64,000 bases of DNA from assembly GCA_946414805.1 (NCBI GenBank), contig CAMKPZ010000001.1, positions 368,110 through 432,109 of the forward strand, read 5' to 3'. Source of the stretch: an uncultured Bacteroidales bacterium (lineage in GTDB: Bacteria; Bacteroidota; Bacteroidia; Bacteroidales; Paludibacteraceae). This document shows positions 2,140-50,231 of this stretch, one piece after another (positions within the stretch are counted from its first letter, which is position 1; every line of letters begins with the position of its first letter). The translations under genes and the position numbers were made by a program. Under the pieces are notes generated by a model. It saw nothing but the letters and a program-made list of their open reading frames with translations. It was not told the DNA's origin and made no database searches.

Positions 2140-5100
2140 ATGAAGAATTTCAAATTATGGAATACGGTTTTCGGTTGGGTGGCTTTTGCCATCGCTGCTG
2201 CAACGTATCTCCTGACAATGGAACCCACCGCCTCATTCTGGGACTGCGGCGAGTTCATCTCCAGCGCATGGAAGCTGGATGTGGGTCATCCGCCCGGAGC
2301 ACCGTTTTTTATGCTCATGGGGCATTTCTTTAGTCTGTTTGCGTCCGACACATCGCATGTGGCTATGTGCGTGAACGCTTTGTCGGCGTTAGCAAGCGCA
2401 TTCACGATCCTGTTCCTTTTCTGGACTATTACCGCTCTGGCAAAGAAATTGGTGGTGAGCCGTCAGCCGTCAGCCGTCAGCAATCAGATGGACATGTGGC
2501 AGGGAATAGGTATTCTCGGAGCCGGAATGGTAGGTGCATTAGCTTACACGTTCTCCGACACCTTCTGGTTCTCCGCCGTAGAAGGAGAAGTGTATGCGTC
2601 GTCGTCGCTCTTCACTGCCGCTGTGTTCTGGTTGATTCTCAAATGGGACGAGCACGCAGACGAAGAAGGCGCGGACCGCTGGTTAATCGCCATTGCATAC
2701 CTCATGGGATTGTCTATCGGCGTTCACCTGCTGAACCTGCTGACTATTCCGGCGATCGTATTGGTGTACTATTTCCGCCGTTACGAGTTCAAATGGTGGG
2801 GCGTAATCGCCGCCTTCGGCGCCGCTTGCGGAATCCTGTTGGTGATCCTGTACGGTATTATTCCGGGGTTCCCGACCGTAGCCGGTTGGTTTGAACTGCT
2901 GTTCGTAAACGGCTTCGGAATGCCGTTCAACACAGGTCTCGTGGTCTATATTATCTCGGTGATCCTTGCTTTGACATGGGCGATTGCAGAGTCGGCCTTG
3001 GACCGCAACAAACTGCGGATGGTACTGTCCTTCGTGTTAGCCGTAGCGCTCTCCGGCGCCGTGTTCCTGTTCGAGCAATGGTGGATCGGAATCCTCCTTT
3101 CCGTCGCTCTGGCAGCAACTCTGGTTCCGATGCGAAACAAGATCCCTGCCCGCTGGCTGAATACGATCTCGGTTATGATCGCTGTGATCCTGATCGGCTA
3201 CAGCTCCTATGCGGCCCTTGTGATCCGCTCCAATGCAGACACGCCGATGGATCAGAACTCGCCGGATAATGTGTTCTCGCTCAAGTATTATCTGAACCGT
3301 GAACAATACGGGGACCGTCCGCTTTTCTACGGCCAGTACTACAATGCGCCGGTAAAACTCCGCGTGGAAGGGAACATGTGTGTGCCTGTGGAGAAAGTAG
3401 GTCACGCGCAGTATGCTCCGGCTCCCAAAACAGAAGGCGAGAAAGACCATTATGTAGTGACCGGACATAAGAACAGCTATGTTTACATGAGCCAGTTCTG
3501 CACGCTTTTCCCGCGTATGTATTCCTCGCAAGGCAGCCACCAGTCGGCATACAAGGAATGGGCGGATGTGAAAGGGAAACGTGTCCGTTACGACTATTGC
3601 GGCCAGCAGAAAACAGAATATTGTCCTACTTTTGTCGAGAACCTGCGGTTCTTCTTCAGTTACCAAGTACATTTTATGTATTGGCGCTATTTCATGTGGA
3701 ATTTCGCGGGACGCCAGAACGACCTCCAGTCCTACGGCGAGTTGACCAAAGGCAACTGGATCTCCGGTATTCCGGCGCTGGATAATGCACGTCTGGGCGA
3801 CCAGGATCTGCTGCCGACGGAACTCAAAGAGAACAAGGGACATAATGTGTATTATCTCCTGCCGCTTCTGTTAGGTCTGATCGGAATCACATGGCAATGC
3901 GGCAAGCGCGACGCAGAGGGCAAAGCGGAAGGCTGGAAGAACTTCACGCTGACTTTCCTGCTGTTCTTCCTAACGGGTCTGGCAATCGTGATCTATCTGA
4001 ACCAGACACCTTACCAACCGCGTGAGCGTGACTACGCGTATGCGGGTTCGTTCTATGCCTTCTGTATCTGGATCGGTCTTGGCGCATTGGCGATCGTTGA
4101 CTGGATCAACCAGCTATCAGCCGTCAGCCGTCAGCATTCAATTGTCAAGACCTCAATCGCTGTTGCTGTGAGCCTCCTGTGTCTGGGTGTTCCGGCATTG
4201 ATGGCACAGCAGAACTGGGATGACCACGACCGTTCGAACCGCTATTCGTGCCGTGATTTCGGAGCCAATTATCTCAAGTCCTGCGAGACACAGGCCATCC
4301 TGTTCTCCAACGGCGATAATGACACCTTCCCCTTGTGGTACAACCAAGAGGTGGAAGGAGTAGGGACCGATCTGCGCGTGTGCAACCTCTCGTATCTGCA
4401 GACCGATTGGTATATATCGCAGATGAAGCGTCCGTACTATGAGTCGAAAGCATTGCCTATCTCATGGGAATACAAGGATTTCATGCCTAACAGCAATGAG
4501 ATCGCCCGTGTGGACAACCGTCTGGGACAACCGATCTCGGTTGAGAAAGCGTTCGCTTTCCTGCGTTCGGATGATCCGCGCACCAAGACCCGCGAAGGTG
4601 AAAACTATCTCCCGTCCGACAAACTCTACGTGGAGACACCTGACGGCGAACAGATCACCTTCCGCTCCAAACGGATGTACACCCGTTCGGAGATGATGAT
4701 CATGGAGATGCTCTCCACCAACAAATGGGAGCGTCCGATGTATTTCTGCGCCACGGTCGGCAATGACTACTATCTGGGACTTGAGCCGTGGATGGAACTG
4801 ACCGGTCTGACCTATCAGATCACTCCGACCCGCAGCCGCGACGGCCAACCGCGCGTCAACTCCGAGAAGATGTATGACAACATGATGCATAAATTCCAAT
4901 ACGGAAACATGAATATCCCCGGTATCTATATCGACGAGAACCTGATGCGCATGTGCCGCACCCACCGAATGATGTTCGCCCAACTGGCAGAACAACTCAT
5001 CCGTGAGAACCAACGCGACAAGGCACTCGAAGTGCTGAATTTCGCGGAGGAGCAACTGCCGGGTTACAACATTCCGTATGACTATACATCCGCCTCGATG

Positions 5101-5346
5101 GCATCCATGTATTTCATGCTCCACGAGGACGAGAAAGCACTTGCTATCATGGATTATGTAGCCAATAACAGCGTGGAAATGCTGCGTTTTGCCGCTTCTC
5201 TGAACCGTGCCCAACGCAAAGCGATGGAGCCTACCACCAACCGTGAAGGAGCGATTCTGGGCTATGTGCTCCAGACCTGCGAACGCTACAAGCAGCATGA
5301 GTTTGTGGATAAATACTACGGCGATTACGCAACGTACGTAAATTAA
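2140..5346 (+). CDS. DUF2723 family membrane protein (putative protein O-mannosyltransferase-like)
   Basis: A 1068-residue membrane protein. The N-terminus carries the family signature EPTASFWDCGEFI followed by HPPGAPFF, then about ten hydrophobic helices. A soluble C-terminal half follows (SNGDNDTFPLWY, PMYFC). DUF2723 proteins are related to eukaryotic TMEM260 and to GT-C glycosyltransferases, so an extracytoplasmic O-glycosylation role is likely but inferred. Start chosen at MKNFKLWNTVFG because the longer frame has no homologous character and overlaps the promoter box. Two stretches of 7-bp tandem repeats interrupt the protein at about residues 107-116 and 658-667 (both containing SAVS), in loops between conserved segments. 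Confidence 0.85.
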   Translation: MKNFKLWNTVFGWVAFAIAAATYLLTMEPTASFWDCGEFISSAWKLDVGHPPGAPFFMLMGHFFSLFASDTSHVAMCVNALSALASAFTILFLFWTITALAKKLVVSRQPSAVSNQMDMWQGIGILGAGMVGALAYTFSDTFWFSAVEGEVYASSSLFTAAVFWLILKWDEHADEEGADRWLIAIAYLMGLSIGVHLLNLLTIPAIVLVYYFRRYEFKWWGVIAAFGAACGILLVILYGIIPGFPTVAGWFELLFVNGFGMPFNTGLVVYIISVILALTWAIAESALDRNKLRMVLSFVLAVALSGAVFLFEQWWIGILLSVALAATLVPMRNKIPARWLNTISVMIAVILIGYSSYAALVIRSNADTPMDQNSPDNVFSLKYYLNREQYGDRPLFYGQYYNAPVKLRVEGNMCVPVEKVGHAQYAPAPKTEGEKDHYVVTGHKNSYVYMSQFCTLFPRMYSSQGSHQSAYKEWADVKGKRVRYDYCGQQKTEYCPTFVENLRFFFSYQVHFMYWRYFMWNFAGRQNDLQSYGELTKGNWISGIPALDNARLGDQDLLPTELKENKGHNVYYLLPLLLGLIGITWQCGKRDAEGKAEGWKNFTLTFLLFFLTGLAIVIYLNQTPYQPRERDYAYAGSFYAFCIWIGLGALAIVDWINQLSAVSRQHSIVKTSIAVAVSLLCLGVPALMAQQNWDDHDRSNRYSCRDFGANYLKSCETQAILFSNGDNDTFPLWYNQEVEGVGTDLRVCNLSYLQTDWYISQMKRPYYESKALPISWEYKDFMPNSNEIARVDNRLGQPISVEKAFAFLRSDDPRTKTREGENYLPSDKLYVETPDGEQITFRSKRMYTRSEMMIMEMLSTNKWERPMYFCATVGNDYYLGLEPWMELTGLTYQITPTRSRDGQPRVNSEKMYDNMMHKFQYGNMNIPGIYIDENLMRMCRTHRMMFAQLAEQLIRENQRDKALEVLNFAEEQLPGYNIPYDYTSASMASMYFMLHEDEKALAIMDYVANNSVEMLRFAASLNRAQRKAMEPTTNREGAILGYVLQTCERYKQHEFVDKYYGDYATYVN
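2458..2487. repeat. 7-bp tandem repeat inside DUF2723 gene, copy 1
   Basis: Three exact AGCCGTC units followed by AGCAATC, translated in frame as part of a hydrophilic loop before the conserved GALAYTFSDTFWFSAVEGE segment. Confidence 0.85.
4112..4139. repeat. 7-bp tandem repeat inside DUF2723 gene, copy 2
   Basis: Units AGCTATC, AGCCGTC, AGCCGTC, AGCATTC in frame, within the loop before the last membrane helix. Same word as at 2458 and, inverted, in ispE at 12662. Confidence 0.85.
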
Positions 5347-5361
5347 AAAAATCAAATTGAA

Positions 5362-6639
5362 ATGACAACAATAAATACAGTACCCGTCTTGCTGCTTACC
5401 GGATATCTCGGAAGCGGCAAGACTACACTCTTAAACCGCATTCTGACGAACAACAGAGGTATTCGTTTTGCGGTGATTGTCAATGACATAGGCGAGGTGA
5501 ATATTGACGCTTCGCTGATTCAACAGGGCGGAGTTGTGAGCCAGAAAGACGACTCGCTGGTGGCGCTTCAGAACGGATGTATCTGCTGTACGCTGCAGAC
5601 CGATCTGATCAACCAGTTGCACGAGCTCTGCGCGCAGAAGATCTATGATTATATCGTGATTGAGGCCAGCGGTATCTGCGAACCCGCGCCTATCGCACAA
5701 ACGATCTGCTCGTATCCGCAGATGGTGCCTCAGTTCGCGTTAGACGGCATGCCGGCGCTGGATTGCATCTGCTCTGTGGTAGATGCACTGCGTATCCGTG
5801 ACGAGTTCATGGATCGTCTGGGCGACGAGCATGAAGAAGGTCACGGAACAGCCATGAAAGCGAAGGAAGAAGACCTCGCAGCACTGGTTACCGAGCAGAT
5901 AGAGTTCTGTAATATCATTCTTCTGAACAAGGTTTCCGAAGTTAGCGAAGAGGAACTGGCACGTGTCAAGGCGATCATTCGCGCTATTCAACCCAAGGCG
6001 GAAATCATTGAAACCAACTTCTGTGATGTGCCGTTTGAGAAGATTCTGAACACGAAAATGTTCGACTTCGACCGCGTTGCTACTTCTGCAACATGGATCC
6101 AAGAAGTAGAGGACGCATGCCATCACGACGACCATGACGAGGACGAGGATGACGACGATGATCACGATCACGATGAGCATGAACATGAGCATGAGCACGA
6201 ACACGAGCACGAACACGAGCATCACCATCATCACCACCACGACCATGAGCATGGCGAGCATGACCACCTGGCGGAATTCGGTATTGACACCTATGTATAT
6301 TACGCGCGCAAGCCGTTTGACTTAGGGATGTTCGACGAATTCGTTGCCGCTCACTGGCCCAAGAACGTGATCCGCTGCAAAGGTATGTGCTATTTTGCAG
6401 AGGAGTATGACATGTGCTATCTCTTTGAGCAAGCCGGCAGCCAGTTCAATCTCCGCAAAGCAGGAGAGTGGTTCGCCACTATGCCCAAAGAGGAACTGAT
6501 GCAACTCATGGCCGACGATGCGCAGTTGCGTCATGACTGGGACGACCAGTACGGCGACAGAATGCAGAAACTGGTTTTCATTGGCCAGCACCTGGACAAA
6601 GAGGCACTCAAAAAGGCGCTTGACAACTGCCTGCAATAG
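5362..6639 (+). CDS. CobW/COG0523-type GTPase with His/Asp/Glu-rich metal-binding region
   Basis: A 425-residue G3E GTPase. Walker A is GYLGSGKTT (residues 14-22); the metal-site motif CICC is at 73-76. A region of about 50 residues (about 254-302) is almost entirely His, Asp and Glu and precedes the CobW C-terminal domain (TYVYYARKPFD onward). Family members are metallochaperones or metal-insertase GTPases, often for zinc; the His-rich segment supports a zinc, cobalt or nickel role, but the metal is not determined by sequence. It starts 15 bp after the DUF2723 stop and may be cotranscribed with it. A strong hairpin terminator follows. Confidence 0.88.
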   Translation: MTTINTVPVLLLTGYLGSGKTTLLNRILTNNRGIRFAVIVNDIGEVNIDASLIQQGGVVSQKDDSLVALQNGCICCTLQTDLINQLHELCAQKIYDYIVIEASGICEPAPIAQTICSYPQMVPQFALDGMPALDCICSVVDALRIRDEFMDRLGDEHEEGHGTAMKAKEEDLAALVTEQIEFCNIILLNKVSEVSEEELARVKAIIRAIQPKAEIIETNFCDVPFEKILNTKMFDFDRVATSATWIQEVEDACHHDDHDEDEDDDDDHDHDEHEHEHEHEHEHEHEHHHHHHHDHEHGEHDHLAEFGIDTYVYYARKPFDLGMFDEFVAAHWPKNVIRCKGMCYFAEEYDMCYLFEQAGSQFNLRKAGEWFATMPKEELMQLMADDAQLRHDWDDQYGDRMQKLVFIGQHLDKEALKKALDNCLQ

Positions 6640-6662
6640 TGCAAATACCGATAAAAATTGTA

Positions 6663-6698
6663 AAAAAATCGGCATACATTTGCGTATGTCGATTTTTT
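6663..6698 (+). terminator. bidirectional hairpin terminator
   Basis: A 15-bp stem (one G-T pair) around a 6-nt loop: A6-TCGGCATAC against GTATGTCGA-T6. It ends the GTPase transcript. Its right arm overlaps the promoter of the next operon. Confidence 0.85.
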
Positions 6699-6710
6699 GT
6701 TGTAACTTTG
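6680..6710 (+). promoter_or_regulatory. promoter of the methylmalonyl-CoA operon
   Basis: TTG at 6680-6682, a 20-bp spacer, TAACTTTG at 6703-6710; about 75 bp before the mce start. The promoter is embedded in the preceding terminator hairpin. Confidence 0.8.
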
Positions 6711-6784
6711 CGGCGTTTTATACGTAACGTATAATAAAGAGCGGAACTAATTAAAACCAATTTAATTTTATACATCATTTTATT

Positions 6785-7198
6785 ATGAAACCCACACACA
6801 TTGAGCATCTGGGCATTGCAGTAACTTCGTTGGAAGAAGCAATGCCTTTCTTTGAGTTTTTAACCGGCAGTAAGTGCTACAGCATTGAGGAAGTGGCTGA
6901 TCAGAAAGTAAAGACCGCTTTCTTCAAGGTAGGTGAAGTGAAGATCGAACTTCTGGAGCCGACTTGCCCGGAATCGACGATCGCCAAGTTCATTGAGAAG
7001 AACGGCGGCCGCGGCGGTGTTCACCACGTAGCATTCAACGTGGATAATGTAGCAGATTGCCTGGCAGAATGCGAGGCAGCCGGTATCCAGTTGATCGACA
7101 AAGCTCCGCGTAAAGGCGCAGAGAACCTCATGATTGCGTTCCTCCATCCGAAGAGCACCAAGGGTGTACTGACGGAGATCTGCCAGCAACCGAAGTAA
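6785..7198 (+). CDS. mce: methylmalonyl-CoA epimerase
   Basis: Interconverts (R)- and (S)-methylmalonyl-CoA. The 137-residue length is typical of this glyoxalase-fold enzyme. Visible metal-site motifs include the HIEHLGIAV start, IELLEPT and the RGGVHHVAFNV strand, ending near LTEIC. It is the first gene of a five-gene plus-strand cluster with the methylmalonyl-CoA decarboxylase subunits, the standard propionate-forming arrangement in Bacteroidales. Confidence 0.95.
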   Translation: MKPTHIEHLGIAVTSLEEAMPFFEFLTGSKCYSIEEVADQKVKTAFFKVGEVKIELLEPTCPESTIAKFIEKNGGRGGVHHVAFNVDNVADCLAECEAAGIQLIDKAPRKGAENLMIAFLHPKSTKGVLTEICQQPK

Positions 7199-7222
7199 AA
7201 TCATTTAACTATTTTGATATTT

Positions 7223-8779: not shown

Positions 8780-8781
8780 TT

Positions 8782-9201: not shown

Positions 9202-9236
9202 TGACCGAATGCTGACAACTGAAAACTAATAAAACA
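9202..9236. repeat. degenerate 7-bp repeat spacer
   Basis: The spacer between the gamma subunit and the biotin carrier reads as successive 7-mers (CTGATGA, CCGAATG, CTGACAA, CTGAAAA, CTAATAA). It is a weak member of the heptamer repeats seen elsewhere in the window. Confidence 0.5.
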
Positions 9237-9686: not shown

Positions 9687-9699
9687 TCTGGTATTCTAA

Positions 9700-9734
9700 G
9701 TCAACCGGTTAACTGGTCGACAGTCAAATAAACT
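9700..9734. repeat. degenerate 7-bp repeat spacer
   Basis: Units GTCAACC, GGTTAAC, TGGTCGA, CAGTCAA and ATAAACT fill the spacer between the biotin carrier and the beta subunit. Confidence 0.6.
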
Positions 9735-9738
9735 GATT

Positions 9739-12074: not shown

Positions 12075-12821
12075 ACCGCTGCCGCTCATAGCGGCATAGA
12101 AAGCGCCTGCGTCCAGCAGACGCTTTTTTATTTGGGCTATCGCCGGATGGAGAGGGAAGACCGTCGCTTCAAAATCATTGACAAAAGCATCGCCCTTGCC
12201 TAATTGCTCCGGTATATTCAGTTTCCCCTTCAGTGAGGGAGTCGGGTACGGTTTTATTCCGGCATACGCCTCTTTGGTGCTGACGCCTTCTTCGGGTTTG
12301 ACCAGCAGGATCCGGATACCGCGCAGATCCAGATCAATCGGTGTCAGCTTGTCTCCGATGCCTTCGGCGAAACAGGGGGTGTTATAAATAAAGAAAGGAC
12401 AATCGGCACCCAAGGGACGCACTTCTTCCGCTAATTGCTTTTTGGTCAAACCCAGTGAGAAGAGTTCGTTCAGTGCGATAGCCATATGCGCTGCATCGCT
12501 GCTTCCGCCCCCTAAACCGGCGCCGAAAGGGATATTCTTCCTGAATCGGATGGACACTCCGCCTATCTGCGGGTATCTCGCCGCCATCCGGTGGTAACAA
12601 CGGATAATCAGATTATCCTCCTCCGGACAATCAACCGCAATCCCTTCCTGTACAAAAGAAATCTGACGGCTGACAGCCGGAGACGGAATGCTCGTCACTT
12701 CTAATTCATCGTGCAGCCCGTAAATAGGGACAAAAACAGTCTCTAAATCATGGTAGTTGTCCGGACGCTTGCGGATGACACGCAGCCCCAGATTGATCTT
12801 GCAATTCGGATAGAGTATCAT
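11949..12821 (-). CDS. ispE: 4-diphosphocytidyl-2-C-methyl-D-erythritol kinase
   Basis: Phosphorylates CDP-methylerythritol in the MEP isoprenoid pathway. The 290-residue GHMP kinase starts MILYPNCKINLGL, with the ATP loop IPFGAGLGGGSSDAA and C-terminal MSGSGSTVFGLF. The ATG at 12821 matches the family start; a longer frame to 12860 would run through the promoter. A 7-bp repeat (GGCTGAC type) encodes a surface segment at about residues 48-54. The 3' end overlaps the histidine kinase by 126 bp on the other strand, both C-termini being credible. Confidence 0.93.
   Translation of the reverse strand: MILYPNCKINLGLRVIRKRPDNYHDLETVFVPIYGLHDELEVTSIPSPAVSRQISFVQEGIAVDCPEEDNLIIRCYHRMAARYPQIGGVSIRFRKNIPFGAGLGGGSSDAAHMAIALNELFSLGLTKKQLAEEVRPLGADCPFFIYNTPCFAEGIGDKLTPIDLDLRGIRILLVKPEEGVSTKEAYAGIKPYPTPSLKGKLNIPEQLGKGDAFVNDFEATVFPLHPAIAQIKKRLLDAGAFYAAMSGSGSTVFGLFQNDPEGCTDARLRAFKEEFASMILLDDTFGEWQA
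12662..12682. repeat. 7-bp repeat inside ispE
   Basis: ATCTGAC, GGCTGAC, AGCCGGA: an inverted match to the AGCCGTC word of the DUF2723 gene. It encodes PAVSRQ in IspE, resembling SAVSRQ in the DUF2723 protein. Confidence 0.6.
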
Positions 12822-23839: not shown

Positions 23840-24739
23840 TTAACCTACTTGCACCTCCGGATTGATCTTACGGATCAAGCCTTTGAGTACATCTCCCGGA
23901 CCGAATTCATAGAACTCATTGGCTCCATCAGCGATCATGTTTTGAACCGTCTGCGTCCAGCGAACGGGGGATGTGAGTTGTTTCAGGAGGTTTTCGCGGA
24001 TAGTCTCCGGCTCCATTTCCGCCTTTGCAGATACATTCTGATAGATCGGGCAGAAAGGTTTGCGGAACTCCGTTTTGAGAATGGCTTCACGCAGATCTTC
24101 TGCCGCCGGCGCCATCAACGGGGAGTGGAATGCCCCTCCGACAGGCAGACGCAACGCGCGCCGTGCACCGGCTTCTTTCATCGCCACGCAAGCGGCTTCG
24201 ACGGCTTCGATGTCGCCGGAGATGACAATCTGACCCGGGCAGTTGAAATTGGCAGCGACAACTGTTAATTGAGAATTAAGAATTGAGAATTGAGAATTAA
24301 CCAATTCCTGACATATCTCTTCAACTTTCTCATCTTCCAAACCAAGGACGGCGGCCATCGTTCCGGGGTTTTGTTCACACGCTGCCTGCATCGCCTGCGC
24401 ACGCGCGGACACTAATAACAAGGCGTCCTCAAAACGCAATGCACCGCAAGCCACCAGTGCGGAGAACTCTCCCAGACTATGCCCCGCCACCATCGCCGGC
24501 GTCTCGATTGTCATTAACCGCTGCGCCACAACGGAGTGCAAGAACACTGCCGGTTGGGTCACTCTGGTCTGCTTGAGATCGTCCGCCGTACCGGAAAACA
24601 TCACTTCGGACAAAGAGAAGCCCAGCAGGCTGTCTGCCTGCCGGAACATCTCTCTTGCCTCCGGGTACGCGTCATACAGATCGCGTCCCATTCCCGGGAA
24701 CTGGCTTCCCTGCCCCGGAAAGACAAATGCTTTGCTCAT
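23840..24739 (-). CDS. fabD: malonyl-CoA:ACP transacylase
   Basis: Loads malonyl groups onto acyl carrier protein for fatty-acid synthesis. 299 residues: FPGQGSQ at 8-14, catalytic serine in GHSLGE (about Ser88), AANFNCPGQIVISG, active-site His in GGAFHSPLM. The region after EEICQEL contains an in-frame heptamer-repeat insertion (24269-24300, about residues 146-157, NSQFSILNSQ), lengthening a loop by roughly seven residues relative to E. coli FabD. The start is 2 bp downstream of the ATPase K gene, so it is probably cotranscribed with the V-ATPase. Confidence 0.95.
   Translation of the reverse strand: MSKAFVFPGQGSQFPGMGRDLYDAYPEAREMFRQADSLLGFSLSEVMFSGTADDLKQTRVTQPAVFLHSVVAQRLMTIETPAMVAGHSLGEFSALVACGALRFEDALLLVSARAQAMQAACEQNPGTMAAVLGLEDEKVEEICQELVNSQFSILNSQLTVVAANFNCPGQIVISGDIEAVEAACVAMKEAGARRALRLPVGGAFHSPLMAPAAEDLREAILKTEFRKPFCPIYQNVSAKAEMEPETIRENLLKQLTSPVRWTQTVQNMIADGANEFYEFGPGDVLKGLIRKINPEVQVG
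24269..24300. repeat. 7-bp tandem repeat inside fabD
   Basis: TTGAGAA, TTAAGAA, TTGAGAA, TTGAGAA, TTAA on the plus strand. The complementary word TCTCAAT/TTCTCAA occurs as an intergenic tandem at 56701-56728. Confidence 0.85.
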
Positions 24740-24741: not shown

Positions 24742-25196
<455 letters not shown>

Positions 25197-25197
<1 letters not shown>

Positions 25198-27002
25198 TAT
25201 TGTTTCTTAAAAGGTGTATAGAGTTTTCCGTTGCCCTCATATCCTGCATTCTTGAAATACTCTACGAACGACAGACGCAGCGGGTGGACAAAGGCACCCA
25301 GACAAGCCATCAGCAGATTGAGCACGTGACCGAAAGTGACGATCACCACAAAGCCTATCCATGCGCCGATACCCGGGTTCTCGCCAAGAACCTGTACGCC
25401 AAGCTGGTTGAAGGCAGCACCTAACATTCCGCCCGCCAGACCGAGGGCATACAAACGGATATATGAGAGTACATCGCCCAACAAACCGGTTGTCATTCCA
25501 TAGGTATCCCACAAACCGGCACCGATGTTAATCAGCGGGTTACGGCCGGGCGTATTGAAGACGAAGATACCTAACGCCGAGACAGCACCGATAGCGATCA
25601 AGGTCCATTTAACCACCTCAGTAGGCAGAGAGAGTGTCATGGCAAGGATCGCCGTAGCAATTCCTCCGACAATCAGCAACAGCCATCCCCAGGTAGAGAC
25701 AGTAGCCTTGAAACCATTGCGTTTGGTATATGTGACAGCCTTGATCGTCATTGCGAGGATCAGATGGAAGACACCTATCAGGATTGCAAGAACCATCATT
25801 ACATCGTATTCGCCGATCTTACCATTCACACCGAGATTATTGAACATCGGCGCTTTCGCCCACTCCGGGAACCATGCCGCACGGAAGAGATCGATGCCAA
25901 AGAAACCACCCATGAGGTAGCCTATGACGGTTGATCCGACGCCCAACGCCATGATTATACCACCCAGACCTTCGAACATCTCAATCTTCAGTTTGTCCTT
26001 ATAGATAAGATACCCGATGAGGGTAAGCAGGATACCATAGCCGGCATCTCCGATACAGAGCGCAAAGAAAAGCAGGAAGAACGGACCGAGAATAGGCGTC
26101 GGGTCAAACTCATTGTAGTTAGGCCAGCCGTACATACCTGTCAGCGGCTCGAAGAGACGCACAAACCAGTTGTTATGCAACTTGATCGGCGTAGCGTCCT
26201 CTGCATCCGGATCCGTCTCTTCGTAATAGACTTCCGCTTTCGCCAGCATGGCATTGAGGTCGGGCTCCTTGTCAATCGGGCAGAAACCTTCCACGAGACA
26301 CAACGCACCGTCTGCGAGTTGATCTGTCGAGAGTTGCACACGCGTCCAATCGATCTGCTGGCGTGCCTCTTTGAGTTCGGCTTGCAGTTTCTCCATATTC
26401 GCCAGTCGCCAAGCCTCAATACGTGCTGTAGCGGCAGCCAGCAGTCCGTTGAGATGCTCGATCTCCGTCTGCCATTGTGCAGCCGATTTCTCGGGTTGAG
26501 GGATTTCGGTTGCTTTCTCGAACAGTTCCGAGTTATCGATATTTCGAGATATCGAGTTATCGAGGTCTTTAGACGAGTTATCGAGATTTACGAAGTATGT
26601 CTTACCCTCTATCGTATTGACCGCGATACCCCACTCTTCCTGAAATGCGCTTGCGCTGCAAGAGAAGAAACGGATGGAATATCCGGCTTTCTTCAGCGCC
26701 TCAATACGTGCAGGGTCAAACTCTCCCCACACAGCGGCTTGCTGCATAGCGGACTTGGCATCCGTGATACGCTGTTCAATCGCGGTGCGCTCTTGGATGA
26801 GTTGGTCCGGGGCACCCTGTTTGATCAGACGGCGGAGTTCATCCTCATGCTGAAGCTCAGCTTGAAGCGTCTCGTTGTCCTCGATGAGTCCGGCGGCTTT
26901 CTGACGAATATGCACTACGCCAAGGTTGCGGAGTTGCGACAAGAAAGTCTCATAATCACGATGGAATACCAGAAAGGTATATTTCTTCATTTGCGTAATC
27001 AT
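25197..27002 (-). CDS. ntpI: V-type ATPase subunit I (a/stator subunit)
   Basis: A 601-residue protein. The N-terminal 280 residues are soluble with coiled-coil segments; the C-terminal half has about seven membrane helices (PTPILGPFFLLFFALCIGDAGYG, LGDVLSYIRLYALGLAGG, VHPLRLSFVEYFKN). It provides the membrane half-channel. A segment at about residues 140-158 is encoded by AT-rich repeats (ATCGAG/TTATCGAG words, 26528-26584) and reads as repeated LDNS; it is probably an inserted surface loop. It overlaps the D gene by 4 bp. Confidence 0.92.
26528..26584. repeat. 7- to 8-bp repeats inside ATPase I gene
   Basis: Words of the type GAGTTATCGA and ATATCGAG repeat across 57 bp, in frame, within the variable soluble domain. 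Confidence 0.7.
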
Positions 27003-33184: not shown

Positions 33185-33247
33185 GACACGACTTGACCAC
33201 GACTTAACCTCGACTTGACCACGACTTGACCTCGACTCAACCACGAC
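33185..33247. repeat. 11-bp tandem repeat, CGACTTGACCT family
   Basis: Six units: CGACTTGACCA, CGACTTAACCT, CGACTTGACCA, CGACTTGACCT, CGACTCAACCA, CGACT. It fills the spacer between the HAD and GNAT genes. Confidence 0.9.
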
Positions 33248-33256
33248 TACATGAGA

Positions 33257-43012: not shown

Positions 43013-43029
43013 GAAGGCAATGCGTTGTT

Positions 43030-43506: not shown

Positions 43507-43507
43507 C

Positions 43508-44185
43508 TTATTGAGCGATTGCGATATATTTGTCAATGTCGTTAGCCTCTACCGAAGCAGGATACTCCTCTTTGATGGTCTTGAAAGCCTTGAGTGCTTT
43601 TGCGTTCTCGCCCTCGTGCAGGTAAACGACACCTGCTTTCTTCAGGCTCATCGGAGCAATCACTTTGTTGCCGGAAGCAGCGGCTTTCTCGAATGCCTTG
43701 ACAGCGTTGCTATAATCCTGCAACTCTACATAGGCGTCACCCAGCAGCTGATGAGCAGCCGGATCGATATTGATATCGCTTGCCGAGAACTTCTTGAGGT
43801 ATTTCACTGCATCCTCGTATTGACCCAACTCATAGTAGCAGATGCCGGCATAGAGAGCTGCCAGTTCACCCTGCTGGTTGTGATACTTGTCTGCGGTAGC
43901 CGCGAAGCCTAAAAACTCCGTGTCGCCCTCAAGCGCTTTCTGATAGTCGCTGCGCATGAAATACATCGATGCTTTTGCGTTCTCATTGCTTGCTTCCAGC
44001 TGCTTCGGCACCAGCACATAGGTCTTGAACGCCATAAGGCCCAGCACTACGAGAGCGATACCGGCGATGCACCAGCTCAGCATATTCGAGTGATCCTCAA
44101 TCCATTTACCGGCACCCGTGAGCGCCTCATTTACTTCCTGCAGTTGCTCGTCTTCTTTCACGAACTGTTCTTTTTTCTTTGCCAT
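43508..44185 (-). CDS. tetratricopeptide-repeat membrane protein
   Basis: A 225-residue protein with one membrane helix (about residues 38-58, SWCIAGIALVVLGLMAF) after a cytoplasmic N-terminus, then TPR helices (GICYYELGQYEDAVKYLKKF, AHQLLGDAYVELQDYSNAVKAFEKA, ALKAFKTIKEEYPAS). The architecture resembles YfgM-like periplasmic chaperone-associated proteins. First gene of the transcript leading into ribH. Promoter at 44235-44265. Confidence 0.85.
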   Translation of the reverse strand: MAKKKEQFVKEDEQLQEVNEALTGAGKWIEDHSNMLSWCIAGIALVVLGLMAFKTYVLVPKQLEASNENAKASMYFMRSDYQKALEGDTEFLGFAATADKYHNQQGELAALYAGICYYELGQYEDAVKYLKKFSASDINIDPAAHQLLGDAYVELQDYSNAVKAFEKAAASGNKVIAPMSLKKAGVVYLHEGENAKALKAFKTIKEEYPASVEANDIDKYIAIAQ

Positions 44186-44515
44186 ATAATTTAATTTTTA
44201 TTGTTTACAATAAGGGTTCTTTCGAAAAAGCGCACAAAGGTACAAAAAAATTCCCATATACGCAAATTTTTAGGCGTAAAAAAAGCGTCCGTATAACTTT
44301 TTACTCGAGAAAACTTCCTGAGAATAGGATTTGAGGCCTGCTTTTTCCTTTGTAATCCGGCCACCTCATCGCTACCGTGGGCAGGAATGTAAACTGCCCC
44401 AGTCGGGTCACGGCGTAGAGTACCGGCACGCCATCAGTGAAGCATTTGCACTCGGTTAGTTGTTAATTTGTTGAGTTTTCCGGTTCCTATATGTTATACG
44501 GACGCTCGCTTGCGT
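44186..44515. other. gene-poor spacer with possible gene remnant
   Basis: Contains the TPR gene promoter and a 53-codon open frame without a proper start, minus strand 44301-44462 (..TDGVPVLYAVTRLGQF.., ending GSFLE), which has protein-like composition. I do not recognise it; it may be the end of a lost gene. Confidence 0.4.
44235..44265 (-). promoter_or_regulatory. promoter of the TPR-ribH transcript
   Basis: TTG at 44265-44263, 20 bp, TACCTTTG at 44242-44235. Confidence 0.8.
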
Positions 44516-45841
44516 TCAATCCCCTCTGTGCCATCCGATGGTCAGCACTATGCGGTGGGTATTGGTTCTCATGTCGTACGGTTCGGCTTTTTCATGCGCA
44601 TAGAGATTGATCTGCTGCCAGCGGAACTGGTACGCCGCCTGAATCAGCATATGTTTGCCTCTGTACCCTACTGCCACCGAGGCGTACTGGGTGTTCCGCG
44701 GACGCAGATAATAGGTGTCCTGACGATCGAAAGTTGCGTCGATCGGTACAGCCGTCGTTGCGGGTCTGAATGTGCTCTCGTAGGCGTAACCGGCATTGAT
44801 ATACATGCCCATCACGGGGATCACCTCTATTCCTGCACGCAGTGAATGGACCGCGTCGTGGTATTGCTGCTTGGTGTAGTCATACTGCAGTCCGATCATG
44901 CCGTATCCGCCGATCTGGAATGCTACCGACGACGACAGATGGAGCGGCAGGTGGAATTGCGTGTCCTGCAAACGCAGGTCAGGCGCATACGAAGAGCGCA
45001 ACGAGTCTGTCTGTGAAGTAAGCGTTCCGGCGGTGTATATACGCAGCGATCCTAACGACGGAGTCTCTAATCCGAAGCCCAACCGCAGCCACTGCACAGG
45101 ACGGTATATCGCGCCTACGGAGAAGCCGCAAGACACGTTCGTTAATTGCAGCGAAGTGGCATTCTTGTTGTAGTACTCCTTGCCTTCGGCGTTTGTACGG
45201 CTGAATTTCTCAAGGTAGATTCCGTCGGAGGAAAGGAAGACCGAATGCACGCGCAGACCTGCTCCTATGTACCACCGGTTGGATATATTCATCGCCCAGT
45301 CAAAGGAATACACATTGCTGTAGCCCCGTTCAAAGAGTTGTTGCGTGTACGAGCGCACCGTTGGATCATTGGCGAAAGGAATATCCAATGACGGCAGGAT
45401 TGAACCTAATGAATTTCCTTCACCTCCGACACCTTCCAACGTGCGCATATACGCGTTCTTGCGGTGATAGGAGAACATGAGGTTGTTGAACTGCACCCCT
45501 TTGTTGCTGTTGCTGAACGAAGGGATAGACACCACGATCGCAGCCTGTGAGCACATGAATCCATGGCGCAGCCAATGACCGGTTGTCCCGTTCTGCCAGG
45601 TCTTGTCAATCAGTTCCTCGAAAGTCACGGTGGCTTCCGAACGGCGATAGAGACCCAATCCTGCTACGTTGTCCAGTGCTGCCGACGGATCGCCTCCGAT
45701 AGCCGTCATTGCGCCGCCCATGCCTACATACCGCGCCGTACCGGAGATCGAACTCTCGCTCATTCGGGCGTAGTCCTGCGACCATGTACCAAGGGACAAA
45801 GCACCAAGTACCACGGTTACTATGTATCGGAGTTTTCTCAT
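44516..45841 (-). CDS. outer-membrane beta-barrel protein (OMPP1/FadL-like, PorV-like)
   Basis: A 441-residue exported protein. Signal peptide (residues 1-21), then the Bacteroidota signature SSISGTARYVGMGGAMTAIGGDPSAALDNVAGLGLYR, then alternating beta strands ending IVLTIGWHRGD. Members of this group are outer-membrane barrels; some act in type IX secretion or transport hydrophobic compounds. It overlaps the small lipoprotein gene by 4 bp and is probably cotranscribed with it. Confidence 0.85.
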   Translation of the reverse strand: MRKLRYIVTVVLGALSLGTWSQDYARMSESSISGTARYVGMGGAMTAIGGDPSAALDNVAGLGLYRRSEATVTFEELIDKTWQNGTTGHWLRHGFMCSQAAIVVSIPSFSNSNKGVQFNNLMFSYHRKNAYMRTLEGVGGEGNSLGSILPSLDIPFANDPTVRSYTQQLFERGYSNVYSFDWAMNISNRWYIGAGLRVHSVFLSSDGIYLEKFSRTNAEGKEYYNKNATSLQLTNVSCGFSVGAIYRPVQWLRLGFGLETPSLGSLRIYTAGTLTSQTDSLRSSYAPDLRLQDTQFHLPLHLSSSVAFQIGGYGMIGLQYDYTKQQYHDAVHSLRAGIEVIPVMGMYINAGYAYESTFRPATTAVPIDATFDRQDTYYLRPRNTQYASVAVGYRGKHMLIQAAYQFRWQQINLYAHEKAEPYDMRTNTHRIVLTIGWHRGD

Positions 45842-46071
45842 CGTTTGATCTTGATGGTGACGGTGGTATCCTGAACGGATATGTATTCTACTTTACCCGG
45901 ATTACTCGGATTACTCGGATTACTCGGAGTGCTCTGACTGCTGCCCGGAGTTTCCGTCTCGCTCTTGCTGTCCGACCAGATATACGCATCGTCAATCGGC
46001 GGCGCTTGCGTCGTCTGGCAGGCTGCTAACAGGAGCGCGCCCAGAATCACTATGAGGGTCTTTTTCTTCAT
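45838..46071 (-). CDS. small lipoprotein with PSN repeats
   Basis: A 77-residue lipoprotein: signal peptide with lipobox LLAAC (Cys 18). A Ser/Pro-rich segment contains PSNPSNPSNP, encoded by an exact 9-bp tandem repeat (GGATTACTC words, 45899-45925). Ends VEYISVQDTTVTIKIKR. Probably anchored in the outer membrane and working with the barrel protein downstream. Function unknown. Confidence 0.8.
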   Translation of the reverse strand: MKKKTLIVILGALLLAACQTTQAPPIDDAYIWSDSKSETETPGSSQSTPSNPSNPSNPGKVEYISVQDTTVTIKIKR

Positions 46072-46089
46072 TTCGTGTTACAGGCGGTG

Positions 46090-47079
46090 TCAGATCTTTC
46101 TGAATCCGATGATCTCCCGCACCTCTTCGATAGTCTTTTCCGCGCGTGCAGAAGCGGCTTCGGCACCCTGGCGCATCACGCGTTCCAGCAACGCATCATC
46201 CGATGCATAAGCGGTAATCTTCTCGCGGATAGGCGCTAACAGTTTGTTGGCATCTGCCGCCATCTGTTTCTTCATGTCGCCGTAGCGTATCTCCATGCGG
46301 TTATAGAGATCGTTGTAATAGTCCGCCGCCTCTTTGCCGCAGAGCAGTTCGCAGAGCGTGAAGAGGTTTTGTATCACTTCCGGCTTCTCCTGGTTGAGTT
46401 GCGTCGGTCCCTGGTCGGTCACAGCGCGCATGATCTTTTTGGTGACGGTCTTCTCGTCGTCGCAGAGGTACAGACAGTTGCCTTCCGATTTGCCCATCTT
46501 GCCGCTTCCGTCCAGCCCCGGCACTTTCACGGCTTTGTCGGCGAAATGGAAAGATGCGGGTTCTTTGAAGTACTCCACATTGTATATTCTATTGAACCTG
46601 CGCGCGAAGAGCCGTGCCATCTCCATATTCTGCTCCTGATCTTTGCCCACCGGCACTTTGTCTGCTTTGTGCATCAGGATGTCAGCCGCCATCAGGCAGG
46701 GATAGGTCAGCAGTCCGGCATTCACGTTATCGGGTTGTTTGCGCACTTTCTCCTTGAAGGAAGTCACGCGTTCCAGTTCGCCCAGATAGGCGTTCATATT
46801 GAGGTACAGATAGAGTTCGAGCACTTGCTTCACATCGCTCTGTACGTATATCGGTGCTTTGTCGGGATCGATACCGCAGGCGAGGTATTCGCTGAGGATC
46901 GTCTTGACGGAATTGCGGATGTTCTCCGGCGTGGGGTGCGTTGTGAGGGAGTGCCAGTCGGCGATGAAGAACATGCAGTCGTACTCGTCCTGCATCTTCA
47001 CAAAACTCTTCACTGCGCCGAAATAGTTACCGAGGTGCAGGTTTCCCGTGGGTCGTATGCCGCTAATGACTCTTTCCAT
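46090..47079 (-). CDS. trpS: tryptophanyl-tRNA synthetase
   Basis: A 329-residue class I synthetase. The HIGH-type motif is PTGNLHLGNYFGA and the KMSKS-type motif is GSGKMGKSEGN. The start MERVISGIRPTG at 47079 matches the family; the frame to 47160 overlaps the regulator gene. It lies 4 bp after the Lrp-type gene. Confidence 0.96.
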   Translation of the reverse strand: MERVISGIRPTGNLHLGNYFGAVKSFVKMQDEYDCMFFIADWHSLTTHPTPENIRNSVKTILSEYLACGIDPDKAPIYVQSDVKQVLELYLYLNMNAYLGELERVTSFKEKVRKQPDNVNAGLLTYPCLMAADILMHKADKVPVGKDQEQNMEMARLFARRFNRIYNVEYFKEPASFHFADKAVKVPGLDGSGKMGKSEGNCLYLCDDEKTVTKKIMRAVTDQGPTQLNQEKPEVIQNLFTLCELLCGKEAADYYNDLYNRMEIRYGDMKKQMAADANKLLAPIREKITAYASDDALLERVMRQGAEAASARAEKTIEEVREIIGFRKI

Positions 47080-47083
47080 GTTC

Positions 47084-47548
47084 TTACAGTTTGGTCTCGA
47101 TCGGTAATTGACGGAAGATCGGTTGCGAGAGTGCGGTGAGTGTCGTGGTGTCCGCCACACCCGGGATAGCCTGTATTTTGGTATTGAGCAGGGTCAGCAG
47201 GTGCTCGTTGTCATGCGCAAACACCTTGATCAGGATACCGAAGGCGCCCAAGGTATATTGTGCTTCGACCACCTCCGGGATCTGCTTGAGGGCATTGATC
47301 ACCTGGTTGTACATCGAGGCTTTCTCCATCGTTATTCCGATATACACGCAGAGTTCGTAGCCTAAGGCTTTGGGCTGTACGTGGTAACTCGAACCTGTGA
47401 TGGCGCCGTTGTCAAACATCTTCTGAACGCGCTGATGCACAGCCGCTCTGCTCACTCCGCACTGCTCGGCTACCTCTTTGAAGGGGATTCGGGCACTCTT
47501 GGTGATGATCTTCAGGATCTTGCGATCCAGTTCGTCTAATTTGTCCAT
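47084..47548 (-). CDS. Lrp/AsnC-family transcriptional regulator
   Basis: A 154-residue regulator: winged HTH (LDRKILKIITKSARIPFKEVAEQCGVSRAAVHQRVQKM) and a C-terminal RAM ligand-binding domain (ALKQIPEVVEAQYTLGAFGILIKVFAHDNEHLLTLL). The ligand is probably an amino acid. Located directly before trpS. Confidence 0.92.
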   Translation of the reverse strand: MDKLDELDRKILKIITKSARIPFKEVAEQCGVSRAAVHQRVQKMFDNGAITGSSYHVQPKALGYELCVYIGITMEKASMYNQVINALKQIPEVVEAQYTLGAFGILIKVFAHDNEHLLTLLNTKIQAIPGVADTTTLTALSQPIFRQLPIETKL

Positions 47549-47570
47549 GATTGGTATGTTGTATTCTGTT

Positions 47571-49451
47571 TTATTTCATGATTCGTTTGCTTCCGTCCCG
47601 TGAGACGAGCACGTATATGCCGTTCGGCAGATAGTCGATAGCGAGTGCCGTTGCGCGTGTCTCTCCGATACATGCGCCGGAGAGCGTATAGAGACGGAAG
47701 GCTTTGCCCTGCGGGTTATGGATCGTGCTGCCGTCAAAAAGGAGATCGTTGTCTTCGTGCGTCCCGTCGATCGCCTGCGGCTGATAATCCGTCTCCTCGC
47801 CCTGGATGCCTTGCAGCGGCGAGGTATAGTTGACGATCAGGTTTGCCAGTTCGCTGTTTTTCTCCGCGGAGGAGTCGTCCGTGGAACTGAAAGCGAAACT
47901 CACGTCTCCGTGCTGCATACGCCCTGCCCCGCCCTCGCCTGTCACGATTGACGGCACATCCTGCGGTGCATCCGGCGTGACCGCGGGCATCAGCGAAGGG
48001 TCTGTGTCGAAATTGTCGTATGTATGTCCGCCCTGCTTGGTCTTCACGCTCTCCGGCACTTGCTCGTCACGTGTGGCGGCAAGATAAGCGTCGAAATGCA
48101 CAGGGTTGGTCTCCGCGTCATAATAGACAAGCGTCCTGGAACCCTCGAACACATTGTTATAGGCCTTGATGATTCCGCCGTCTTCCTTGGAGAAGGTAGG
48201 AGAATCTTTCTCGTCCGTACCGTTCTTGGTGTCCGTTCCCTGCATGGAGATCAGCATCGGACGCGGACAGTTGCGGAAATAGTTCGCTTCCACGAATCCG
48301 CAGGCACCGTACGTGGCTCCTACGCCGTATTTGGCTATGCCGTCGTAGTAGTTGTTATAGATATGAACGCTCATGGTGCGCAGGCGCGGGTGGCGCGAAT
48401 CGGAGTGGTCGAACCAGTTATGGTGATACGTGATATAGTTCGGTCCCGTCTCGCTCTTCATGCCGCACATAGCCGATTTGCCGGTGTCCCAGAAATGGTT
48501 GTACGCCACGGTCACGTGCTTCGAATCGCTCTTCACATCGATCGTTCCGTCGCCTTTCACCTGGTCTTTGTCCGAGCCCGGCTGGCCGTAGAAGCCGTCG
48601 ATATGATGCACCCATATATGATCGTTGTCGGAGTCCATGGAGATGCAGTCGTCCATCGCGCTCATCACAGCGAGATTGCGTATCTCCACGCTCTCCGCCC
48701 CGCGCACGAGCATTCCGCATCCGCGCAGCACGGCGTCCTTACCCACGCCCTCGAAAGTGATGTCCATCGGTATTCCCACCTTGCCTTTGATCTGCAGTCC
48801 TTCCTCTTTGCTGCCCAGTGAATCCAGATGCGCCACTTCCACCACGCCTATCAGGCGTATCGCCAGCGGCTGTGCGGCAAACCCTTTCTCGTAGGCGCTC
48901 AGGATATGCTGGAGACCAGTGCAGTGACGCTTCGTACCTTTCTTGTCGATCGTGACATCCATCTCCACGGTCTTGGCGTTGGCGGCATGGATATAGAGCA
49001 CTTTGGCTCCGTCTTTCAGCGTGCCGTCATTCTTGTACGCGCCCACGCCCTGCGGATAGTTGAAATGTGCAAAGCCGTTGCGGTCATGCGCCTTTACGGT
49101 CAGCACATCGGTCTCGGCAGGCTTGGCTCCTTCCGCCATCTCGTCCGGGATGTCCGTTCCGCATTCCAGCGTAGCACTCACCTGCATCCGGTAACTGCCG
49201 GGCTTCAATCCCAATGCGTCCGCACGGAGATACGTGCCGTAATAGCGGATCAGAGGATCATCTAATGTCACCGACTCGTTCGTCTCCGTGTTGGTCACCT
49301 TCACCTGATACTCCGCCGCACCGCTCACCGGCGCCCACTCCACATAAGCACTCTCGTACCAACCGCCGGCACCCGTGATCTGAATCTCGCCACGCACACC
49401 GAACGGCATTAAAACGAACGCTGCTATGATCAAAAAGGCCTGTTTACGCAT
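47571..49451 (-). CDS. exported pectate lyase (PL1-like) with type IX secretion tail
   Basis: A 626-residue protein. Signal peptide (QAFLIIAAFVLMPFGVRG), a fibronectin-like domain (YVEWAPVSGAAEYQVKVTN), then a right-handed beta-helix with calcium/catalytic region (MDDCISMDSDNDHIWVHH; HNWFDHSDSRHPRLR, with the conserved Arg). The last 70 residues form a C-terminal sorting-type domain (LYTLSGACIGET ... DYLPNGIYVLVSRDG...). It cleaves pectate outside the cell; the tail indicates type IX export. Start chosen at 49451 after the promoter. Promoter 49472-49502. Confidence 0.9.
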   Translation of the reverse strand: MRKQAFLIIAAFVLMPFGVRGEIQITGAGGWYESAYVEWAPVSGAAEYQVKVTNTETNESVTLDDPLIRYYGTYLRADALGLKPGSYRMQVSATLECGTDIPDEMAEGAKPAETDVLTVKAHDRNGFAHFNYPQGVGAYKNDGTLKDGAKVLYIHAANAKTVEMDVTIDKKGTKRHCTGLQHILSAYEKGFAAQPLAIRLIGVVEVAHLDSLGSKEEGLQIKGKVGIPMDITFEGVGKDAVLRGCGMLVRGAESVEIRNLAVMSAMDDCISMDSDNDHIWVHHIDGFYGQPGSDKDQVKGDGTIDVKSDSKHVTVAYNHFWDTGKSAMCGMKSETGPNYITYHHNWFDHSDSRHPRLRTMSVHIYNNYYDGIAKYGVGATYGACGFVEANYFRNCPRPMLISMQGTDTKNGTDEKDSPTFSKEDGGIIKAYNNVFEGSRTLVYYDAETNPVHFDAYLAATRDEQVPESVKTKQGGHTYDNFDTDPSLMPAVTPDAPQDVPSIVTGEGGAGRMQHGDVSFAFSSTDDSSAEKNSELANLIVNYTSPLQGIQGEETDYQPQAIDGTHEDNDLLFDGSTIHNPQGKAFRLYTLSGACIGETRATALAIDYLPNGIYVLVSRDGSKRIMK

Positions 49452-49471
49452 AATTGTTACGAATTTCGGGG

Positions 49472-49502
49472 CAAAGTTACTGCTTTTTTTGCACATATGC
49501 AA
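49472..49502 (-). promoter_or_regulatory. pectate lyase promoter
   Basis: TTG at 49502-49500, 20 bp, TAACTTTG at 49479-49472. It interleaves with the divergent promoter of the O-methyltransferase gene. Confidence 0.85.
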
Positions 49503-49519
49503 ATTTTTTTGTACTTTTG
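49489..49519 (+). promoter_or_regulatory. O-methyltransferase promoter
   Basis: TTG at 49489-49491, 20 bp, TACTTTTG at 49512-49519. The two divergent -33 elements form the near-palindrome TTTGCACATATGCAAA (49488-49503). Confidence 0.85.
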
Positions 49520-49538
49520 CAGCAAATTTAGTATCAAA

Positions 49539-50231
49539 ATGACATTAGAGGACTATATTGCACTGCATACGACGCCCGAACCGGACTATTTGCAGACGAT
49601 CACGCGTAACACGCACGTACATATATTGAACCCGCACATGTTATCCGGGCACGTGCAGGGGCGCGCACTCGCGATGATCAGTCATATGATCCGTCCGGAG
49701 CGTATTCTCGAACTCGGTACGTTCACCGGTTACAGCGCGCTCTGTCTGGCGGAAGGCCTGCCGGAGAACGGACGGCTGGTGACGATCGAGCATAACGACG
49801 AACTGGAGACCGTCATCCGGCGTAACCTCGCCCTCTCTCCCTTGGGCGCGAAGATCGACCTCCTCATCGGCGATGCCAAAGCAATTCTCAAATCCTACAG
49901 CAATAGCGTTCTTTCGACTTTCGACTTTCGACTTTCGACTTTGAGCGAAGCGGTCGGTCAAAGCAGTTGCTTTGACCTTGTCTTCATCGATGCCGACAAA
50001 CGCGAGTACTGCGCTTACTTGGATCTGGTTTGTCCGTTGGTGCCGGTGGGCGGTTTCATCCTGGCGGACAACACCCTTTGGGACGGACATATCATTGATC
50101 CTGCCTACGACCGTGACAAACAGACGCTCGGTCTGCGTGCGTTCAATGACCGTCTGGCAGCCGACGACCGTTTCGAGCAGGTCATTCTCCCTCTCCGCGA
50201 CGGTCTCACCCTCATCCGCAAAGTGAAATAA
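49539..50231 (+). CDS. SAM-dependent O-methyltransferase (catechol-type)
   Basis: A 230-residue class I methyltransferase: ILELGTFTGYSALCLAEGL binds SAM, LVTIEHNDE follows, and FDLVFIDADKREY carries the metal-site Asp. Metal-dependent O-methylation of a small phenolic is the family role; substrate unknown. A heptamer repeat (TTTCGAC x4, 49912-49939) encodes STFDFRLST at about residues 125-135, lengthening a loop between strands. Start at 49539 (MTLEDYIALHTTPEPDY). Confidence 0.9.
   Translation: MTLEDYIALHTTPEPDYLQTITRNTHVHILNPHMLSGHVQGRALAMISHMIRPERILELGTFTGYSALCLAEGLPENGRLVTIEHNDELETVIRRNLALSPLGAKIDLLIGDAKAILKSYSNSVLSTFDFRLSTLSEAVGQSSCFDLVFIDADKREYCAYLDLVCPLVPVGGFILADNTLWDGHIIDPAYDRDKQTLGLRAFNDRLAADDRFEQVILPLRDGLTLIRKVK
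49912..49942. repeat. 7-bp tandem repeat inside O-methyltransferase gene
   Basis: Four exact TTTCGAC units followed by TTT, in frame. Confidence 0.9.

Follow-up and report, generated by a model that had tools for sequence, protein, structure and literature searches.

Here we describe short tandem repeats with a 7-bp unit (hereafter referred to as heptamer arrays) that lie in frame inside conserved genes of an uncultured Bacteroidales bacterium of the Paludibacteraceae. The window, that is, the whole 64,000-nt stretch of DNA that was analysed, spans C1:368110-432109 (contig CAMKPZ010000001.1, assembly GCA_946414805.1) in a genome of 2.23 Mb and 24 contigs with 96% completeness (G000). Together with 20 further stretches it makes up a sample of 464 kb, 21% of the genome (the G000 sample). 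The nearest named relatives, judged from the O-methyltransferase (OMT), are uncultured Bacteroidales or Paludibacteraceae, many of them with ruminant-sample names.

Heptamer arrays in the window

A sequence-only reading of the window had named nine places with period-7 repeats, in genes and in spacers, and had taken them as an active process of repeat expansion. Tandem Repeats Finder (TRF; score threshold 30) returned period-7 arrays at seven of the nine, namely in the DUF2723 gene (2458 and 4112), fabD and the OMT gene, and in the intergenic tandems at 25169, 55542 and 56701. The observation of heptamer arrays inside conserved genes is confirmed, and is larger than first thought. The features are listed below (all are TRF rows except the word at 49943..49955).

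2458..2481, plus strand: AGCCGTC array, 3.4 copies, in frame in loop 1 of a DUF2723/TMEM260-like gene (2140-5346)
4117..4135, plus strand: TCAGCCG array of the AGCCGTC unit family, in loop 2 of the DUF2723/TMEM260-like gene
24267..24298, minus strand: CAATTCT array, in frame in fabD (23840-24739), peptide NSQFSILNSQL
25167..25196, no strand: AAATTAA array, intergenic, beside the ATPase I gene
26529..26564, minus strand: period-8 array CGAGATAT, 78% matches, in V-ATPase subunit I (25197-27002)
49911..49942, plus strand: CTTTCGA array, 4.6 perfect copies, in frame in the OMT gene (49539-50231), peptide LSTFDFRLSTL
49943..49955, plus strand: GAGCGAAGCGGTC word adjoining the OMT array
55542..55595, no strand: CATTGTG/AATTGTG/CATTGCT composite array, intergenic
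56697..56729, no strand: CAATTCT array, 4.7 perfect copies, intergenic, same unit as the fabD array

AGAATTG, the unit in fabD, and CAATTCT, the intergenic unit at 56697, are reverse complements of each other. The GAGCGAAGCGGTC word beside the OMT array recurs at L005, an unrelated locus, again next to a CTTTCGA-family array, and GACCGCTTCGC occurs 6 times in 464 kb against 0.23 expected from base composition. Two of the nine places read differently. In the ATPase I gene, claimed to hold mixed 7- and 8-bp repeats, there is indeed a tandem array, but its period is 8; the V-ATPase subunit I loop at this array is 7 residues longer than in the relative G099. The ispE array claimed at 12662 gave no row either in TRF at score 30 or in a custom detector.

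Excess of period 7 in one genus

In the window, 8 exact period-7 runs (at least 11 matches) were found against 0 in 50 dinucleotide shuffles. The G000 sample holds 64, and 10 shuffles of it average 0.2; the rate is far above that of shuffled sequence, the comparison that the sequence-only reading had proposed. Exact runs at periods 5, 6, 8, 9, 10 and 11 number 2, 4, 7, 6, 0 and 5 in the same sample, and every period other than 7 in the range 5-13 gives between 0 and 7. The leading unit families (at least 10 matches) are AAAGTCG (13), AATTCAC (11) and AATTCTC (8), followed by ACGGCTG, AAAAATT and AATGTAC (6 each). When mismatches are allowed, the G000 sample contains 76 arrays.

A comparison set of 80 loci from other species (1.40 Mb) has 128 exact runs at period 7, 9 at period 8 and 22 at period 9; with mismatches allowed it yields 221 arrays that fall into 101 unit classes. 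By contrast, 20 other families of the order, each represented by a single short sample (236 kb altogether, a small set of first contigs, many of them short), gave 2 exact period-7 runs and 1 array with mismatches. The congeners thus have the period-7 excess too, and the small sample of 20 other families does not. Three consecutive copies of CTTTCGA are present in 14 of 61 genomes, all 14 belonging to the 37 that represent this genus; the highest count in a single genome is 28 (overlaps included), and the same pattern read backwards has no matches in the 61 genomes. Triple AATTCAC is found in 9/61, congeners, with 20 matches in G000 and 26 in G034, and triple GGGTTAC in 9/61. Each species has its own amplified heptamer units.

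The relatives listed are uncultured or metagenome-assembled genomes, and an assembly or binning artefact was considered. It is extremely improbable: the arrays recur across assemblies of several projects (RUG, RGIG, UBA and SRR names), keep frame, avoid stops and are common to related genomes, as with the FabD array of G000 and G099.

Arrays inside genes

A custom simple gene caller placed 378 genes on the G000 sample, covering 88% of the sequence and leaving 12% non-coding. Per base the arrays are denser outside genes, yet 38 of the 76 lie wholly within them, the others being intergenic (22) or across a gene boundary (16). The claim that the arrays are not confined to spacers and lie in frame in variable loops between conserved motifs is supported. 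By contrast, only 5 of 47 arrays at periods 8, 10 and 11 (periods chosen by the analyst) lie in genes (Fisher P 5.5e-6).

The 38 wholly genic arrays are spread over 27 genes. In an NCBIfam check of ten array genes, eight scored over the cut-off of the model of that name: SecA, MurE, NadA, KsgA/RsmA, IleRS, IspG, PPi-dependent phosphofructokinase and an RluA-family pseudouridine synthase. An array-bearing ABC protein is over the cut-off of the PotA subfamily model, and the array-bearing DapB is under the NCBIfam cut-off and above that of Pfam. Other array genes are FabD, OMT, the DUF2723/TMEM260-like protein and DXS, which carries four arrays in one gene, and, by family, signal peptidase, WbqC, MBOAT, tetrapyrrole methylase and class IV aminotransferase. 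One very dense stretch, G000:C4:40001-60000 (L024), has 16 of the 76 arrays within 20 kb, including the four in DXS and two each in DapB, signal peptidase and the MBOAT gene.

Thirty of the 38 genic arrays are within the middle 80% of the protein. The stop-free strand is the sense strand alone in 15, the antisense strand alone in 1, both strands in 18 and neither in 4; where both are open, the more hydrophilic reading is the one used in 15/18. Genic arrays are in frame, are located in variable loops and in most cases are oriented so that the stop-free strand is the one read.

Same loops, different fillings across species

The OMT loop, defined as the segment between the GDA/GDC and FDLVFIDADK motifs, could be read in 79 of 81 loci (two have no anchors). 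Its length is 30-105 bp, with 93 bp in G000, and 28 of the 79 loci contain a period-7 run of at least 7 matches (a hand count with no shuffle control). The units seen include CTTTCGA, ATTCTCA, AACTTTC, AATTTCA, TGGACAA, ATTGGAG and AGTCGAA. Variable loops also differ between species in FabD, DXS and DapB (30 species each). Base matching at lag 7 is higher in the variable loops than in the rest of the gene for OMT (0.415 versus 0.257), FabD (0.347 versus 0.264), DXS (0.410 versus 0.236) and DapB (0.365 versus 0.252). In the FabD variable regions, lag 7 is not the highest peak, because lag 9 reaches 0.364. By a stricter test on 30 species, an array is present in 8, 14, 4 and 14 of them at the four DXS loops and in 5 at the FabD loop.

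Among congeners inspected by eye, G099 shares the FabD array of G000, at equal length, and the others have none or, at this loop, carry CCAACAG, AAATCAC or ACCAATG arrays. The G000 loop has about 8 residues more than that of PDB 3hjv, and the whole protein exceeds that of congeners with no insert by about 8-11 residues, so that the earlier figure of about seven residues was roughly right. In the DUF2723 gene, compared by eye in 24 species (G000 and 23 congeners), heptamer arrays are present in G000 and G009 alone; the unit is AGCCGTC in both loops of the former and of the TCGAAAG type in both loops of the latter. One further species (L304) has an 8-bp-like repeat, also judged by eye, and the DUF2723 indel regions overall have no clear lag-7 peak (0.274 versus 0.240). 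The sequence-only reading had named relatives with the same loops but no repeats as evidence that would go against it; relatives mostly have no array or other sequence at these places, and the claim is not refuted.

Loops of OMT, DXS, FabD and DapB also hold other dispersed repeats, namely hairpin-like elements bearing GCGAAGC and a CCTCTCCC...GGGAGGG palindrome. The palindromic element is in frame in DXS of at least 7 of 30 species by eye (L191, L192, L197, L198, L199, L202 and L209), where it encodes NPSPTLPSREG-like peptides. In the OMT loop, in-frame repeats with GGCGAAGCC or GCGAAGC hairpin-like cores are found where other species carry heptamers (L059, L061, L063, L068, L079, L135 and L136).

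It is conceivable, at long odds, that selection maintains the arrays for a function: they might serve as regulatory binding sites, act as phase-variation switches or supply useful loop peptides. In Beggiatoaceae, a role in translational regulation has been put forward for TAACTGA heptamers (PMC4679880), and the 22 intergenic and 16 boundary-overlapping arrays are frequent for so small a non-coding fraction. However, a given loop is filled with unrelated sequences in different species or left empty, and for the 30 genic arrays in the middle 80% of a protein a single 7-bp step would break the gene.

Gain and loss as whole blocks

Orthologous sites were compared in bins of flank identity, in which one array may count more than once. 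At 92% or more, 54 arrays were compared: the relative has an array in 46 cases and none in 8, and lengths are equal in 29, differ by multiples of 7 in 7 and by other amounts in 18. The array is absent from the relative in 20/35 cases at 86-92% identity and in 84/124 at 80-86%. On a DXS tree of 30 species, built by a quick method with the loops left out (10 of 27 inner branches well supported), the four loops require at least 7, 11, 4 and 11 changes between presence and absence of an array. Between the sister species G111 and G112, two DXS loops differ, one of them by a heptamer array. Whole arrays are gained or lost, and there is array turnover between related species.

Replication slippage alone, in which the polymerase duplicates resident 7-nt stretches, arrays lengthen in place and those in tolerant loops are retained by selection, predicts that an empty site contains the unit. 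For 37 distinct arrays a relative has an empty orthologous site, and a match of at least 7 bases to the unit is present at 2 of them (permuted mean 0.39, maximum 2), the remaining match lengths being distributed as in the permutations. As a rule, then, the empty sites hold no copy from which the array could have grown. The constant unit length, the 7 of 54 arrays that differ by 7n and a few 7- and 14-bp tandem indels seen between close pairs speak for slippage, as do the many private units and the attribution of heptamer abundance to polymerase contact length (Mrazek 2007, as cited in PMC4679880). However, only 2 of 7 tandem-duplication indels of at least 5 bp at 90% identity or more are 7 bp long (small numbers), and same-unit arrays recur within the genome far above permutation (see below). 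Slippage from resident sequence alone is not supported, and we regard it as an unlikely account of the whole. Of the earlier claim of active repeat expansion, the heptamer specificity and the turnover between related species stand; the word expansion does not, given the empty sites, tandem-duplication indels that 7 bp does not dominate and a FabD array of the same length in G000 and G099.

Two further signals were sought and set aside. The indel-length spectrum of close pairs has no clear 7-bp excess; a 21-bp peak at 78-84% identity (49 events) contains no tandem duplication and comes partly from non-heptamer places that recur in many loci. Loss of mismatch repair was likewise rejected, MutS1 being over the cut-off in G000 and in 38/41 genomes.

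Base-level alignments of 15 analyst-chosen cases show arrays of 21-76 bp inserted into, or replacing, a short stretch between closely similar flanks, often with the replacement of some local bases. One such array, of 76 bp, lies directly after the OMT stop codon in L096 and is missing in L109; in another (L121 versus L109), seven bases at the empty site match the unit. To the eye, none of the 15 alignments shows an evident target-site duplication or terminal inverted repeat.

Spread of units within a genome

Within one locus, pairs of arrays more than 400 bp apart belong to the same unit class in 30/416 cases, against 5.0 in permutations (maximum 14 in 2000). A second set that includes G000 gave 30/473 against 13.5 (maximum 29 in 1000). 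Composite arrays in G000 repeat the same order of variants at distant places: a stretch of 31-32 bp from the window array at 55542..55595 (at 55550) is found again at C2:54007 and C4:43777, and another of 28-31 bp is shared by C2:24229, C2:39791 and C3:9310. In the top composite pairs listed, the shared stretch goes at most about 2 bases past the array. An impure 22-mer is shared by 31 array pairs, against 16.2 under a shuffle of unit order (P 0.001).

On this evidence we propose that heptamer arrays are dispersed, selfish-looking repeats that spread by copy-paste capture and survive where they are in frame, stop-free and in tolerant loops, a reading to which we give a probability of about 55%. 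An existing array, or a fragment of one, would be copied or captured at another site while a break or stalled fork is repaired, possibly through microhomology-mediated template switching or end joining. What suggests repair-coupled capture is that seeds, fixed ends and evident target duplication are all lacking and that local bases are often replaced. Copy number may later change by occasional 7-bp steps, and purging would leave arrays only in tolerant loops and short spacers. The 7-nt step may have its origin in the replication or repair polymerase, as proposed by Mrazek (2007, as cited in PMC4679880).

Several results weigh against copy-paste capture. When G000 is left out of the second set, same-unit pairs fall to 22/357 against 8.8, and one permutation reached 30. 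The block-copying signal is moderate at k 24-28 (P 0.012-0.027), and at k 14-20 the observed value does not exceed the shuffle maximum. In a small test on the DXS, FabD and DapB loops, units are shared between genes in 3/47 pairs (2.7 expected), and the excess is within genes (12/43 against 4.5). Many units are private, with 101 classes among 221 arrays. The turnover counts have no background rate from array-less loops; gain and loss are indistinguishable case by case, and several alignments may represent local replacement of an older array. Finally, no donor, intermediate or dedicated enzyme was identified in this analysis.

Enzyme-driven routes were also weighed. Movement of the arrays by an HUH or RAYT-type transposase, as thought for REP hairpins, is improbable. 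Hairpin-like dispersed elements do occupy the same loops, one of them adjoins CTTTCGA-family arrays at two loci, and a 378-aa open reading frame (ORF) of G000 has a weak Y1_Tnp match. Against this, the heptamer arrays come in many unit types and lack fixed ends, target-site duplication is not evident by eye in the 15 alignments, and Y1_Tnp matches occur in 23/61 congeners, 19 of them over the cut-off (many of the genomes are incomplete). Telomerase-like reverse transcription is more doubtful still, to the point of being nearly negligible: DRT10 makes tandem repeats with a 9-nt unit from an RNA template (PMC12632851), but G000 has no RVT_1 (PF00078) match at 96% completeness, 47 of the 61 genomes searched have none (14/61 are positive), and the units are too many for one template. 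A conserved core with variable positions was tried as a sign of templated synthesis; since period-8, 9 and 11 arrays show the same clustering of variant positions, it is no evidence for a special mechanism.

A bolder version of copy-paste capture, which we hold to be speculative and rather unlikely, is that the arrays form a mobile-DNA class of their own. They would have no ends, hairpin or fixed sequence and would be copied to non-homologous sites by a dedicated activity stepping 7 nt at a time, with new unit types arising continually and the essential proteins of a whole genus reshaped loop by loop.

Other repeats in the sample

Tandem arrays of 11 bp with a related unit (CGACTTGACC type) lie at window positions 1040-1076, 33187-33248 and 56643-56683, and their core word occurs 9 times in 464 kb; 19 of the 20 period-11 arrays of the G000 sample are not wholly within a gene. 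A 9-bp array, TTACTCGGA (4 copies, 96% matches), occupies window positions 45893-45928 inside a short ORF called by the custom caller. A CRISPR-like array at G000:C2:60959-62387 (L012) has 20 copies of a long repeat (GACCGTATTGTTTACTTTTT...) at a spacing of about 75 bp.

Implications and comparison with known systems

The loops of DXS, FabD, OMT and DapB, filled and emptied repeatedly with different sequences, amount to a genus-wide natural experiment on the tolerance of core enzymes for random peptide insertions. In this group of uncultured rumen bacteria, the arrays are a natural record of selfish-looking DNA tolerated by proteins. They also make an old puzzle testable, namely why bacterial tandem repeats so often have a 7-bp unit, and the empty sites argue for arrival as blocks rather than simple growth from resident sequence.

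Heptanucleotide repeats are known from cyanobacteria, Xanthomonas and others; those of the GGGNATC type are reported to be over-represented in non-coding and under-represented in coding sequence (PMC4692102). As in cyanobacteria and Xanthomonas, the arrays described here are dispersed, few-copy 7-bp tandems with genome-specific amplified units (PMC4692102; Mrazek 2007, as cited in PMC4679880). They differ from the GGGNATC repeats in that 38 of 76 are wholly in genes and in having many unit types per genome. TAACTGA repeats, also heptamer direct repeats, occur in Beggiatoaceae, Cyanobacteria and some Bacteroidetes; in the main genome studied most of them lie between genes, and those within genes are found mainly at the protein periphery (PMC4679880). 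The system described here differs from that one-unit system in its many units and in the position of 30 of 38 genic arrays within the middle 80% of proteins. The same source gives two sets of heptamer direct repeats for Paludibacter propionicigenes and reports that heptamer-repeat indels between two close Cyanothece strains are mostly in 7-nt increments (PMC4679880).

Rickettsia palindromic elements offer another likeness, being selfish-looking and in frame in unrelated metabolic genes (Ogata 2000, 2002, as cited in PMC10969869); heptamer arrays share with them the in-frame presence in genes and the absence in relatives. Those elements are described as about 150 bp long with a conserved peptide (PMC10969869), whereas the arrays are unidirectional heptamers of about 18-95 bp that encode different peptides. 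REP elements are likewise short dispersed repeats inside ORFs (PMC3733652), and hairpin-like elements share the loops here, but heptamer arrays are tandem and not palindromic. DRT10 also makes short tandem repeats (9 nt), with no reverse transcriptase match in G000; the term 'genomic integration' is missing from the text of the DRT10 paper (PMC12632851).

On heptamer tandem repeats in Bacteroidales or Bacteroidetes, the literature search returned the TAACTGA paper alone, and a broader one gave, among the 25 of 40 papers listed, none on such repeats in Bacteroidales genes judging by title and abstract, with most subscription papers outside its coverage. What was known is thus the heptamer repeats themselves, reported mostly from intergenic DNA, and what is new is their frequent, fast-turning, in-frame occupation of core enzymes.

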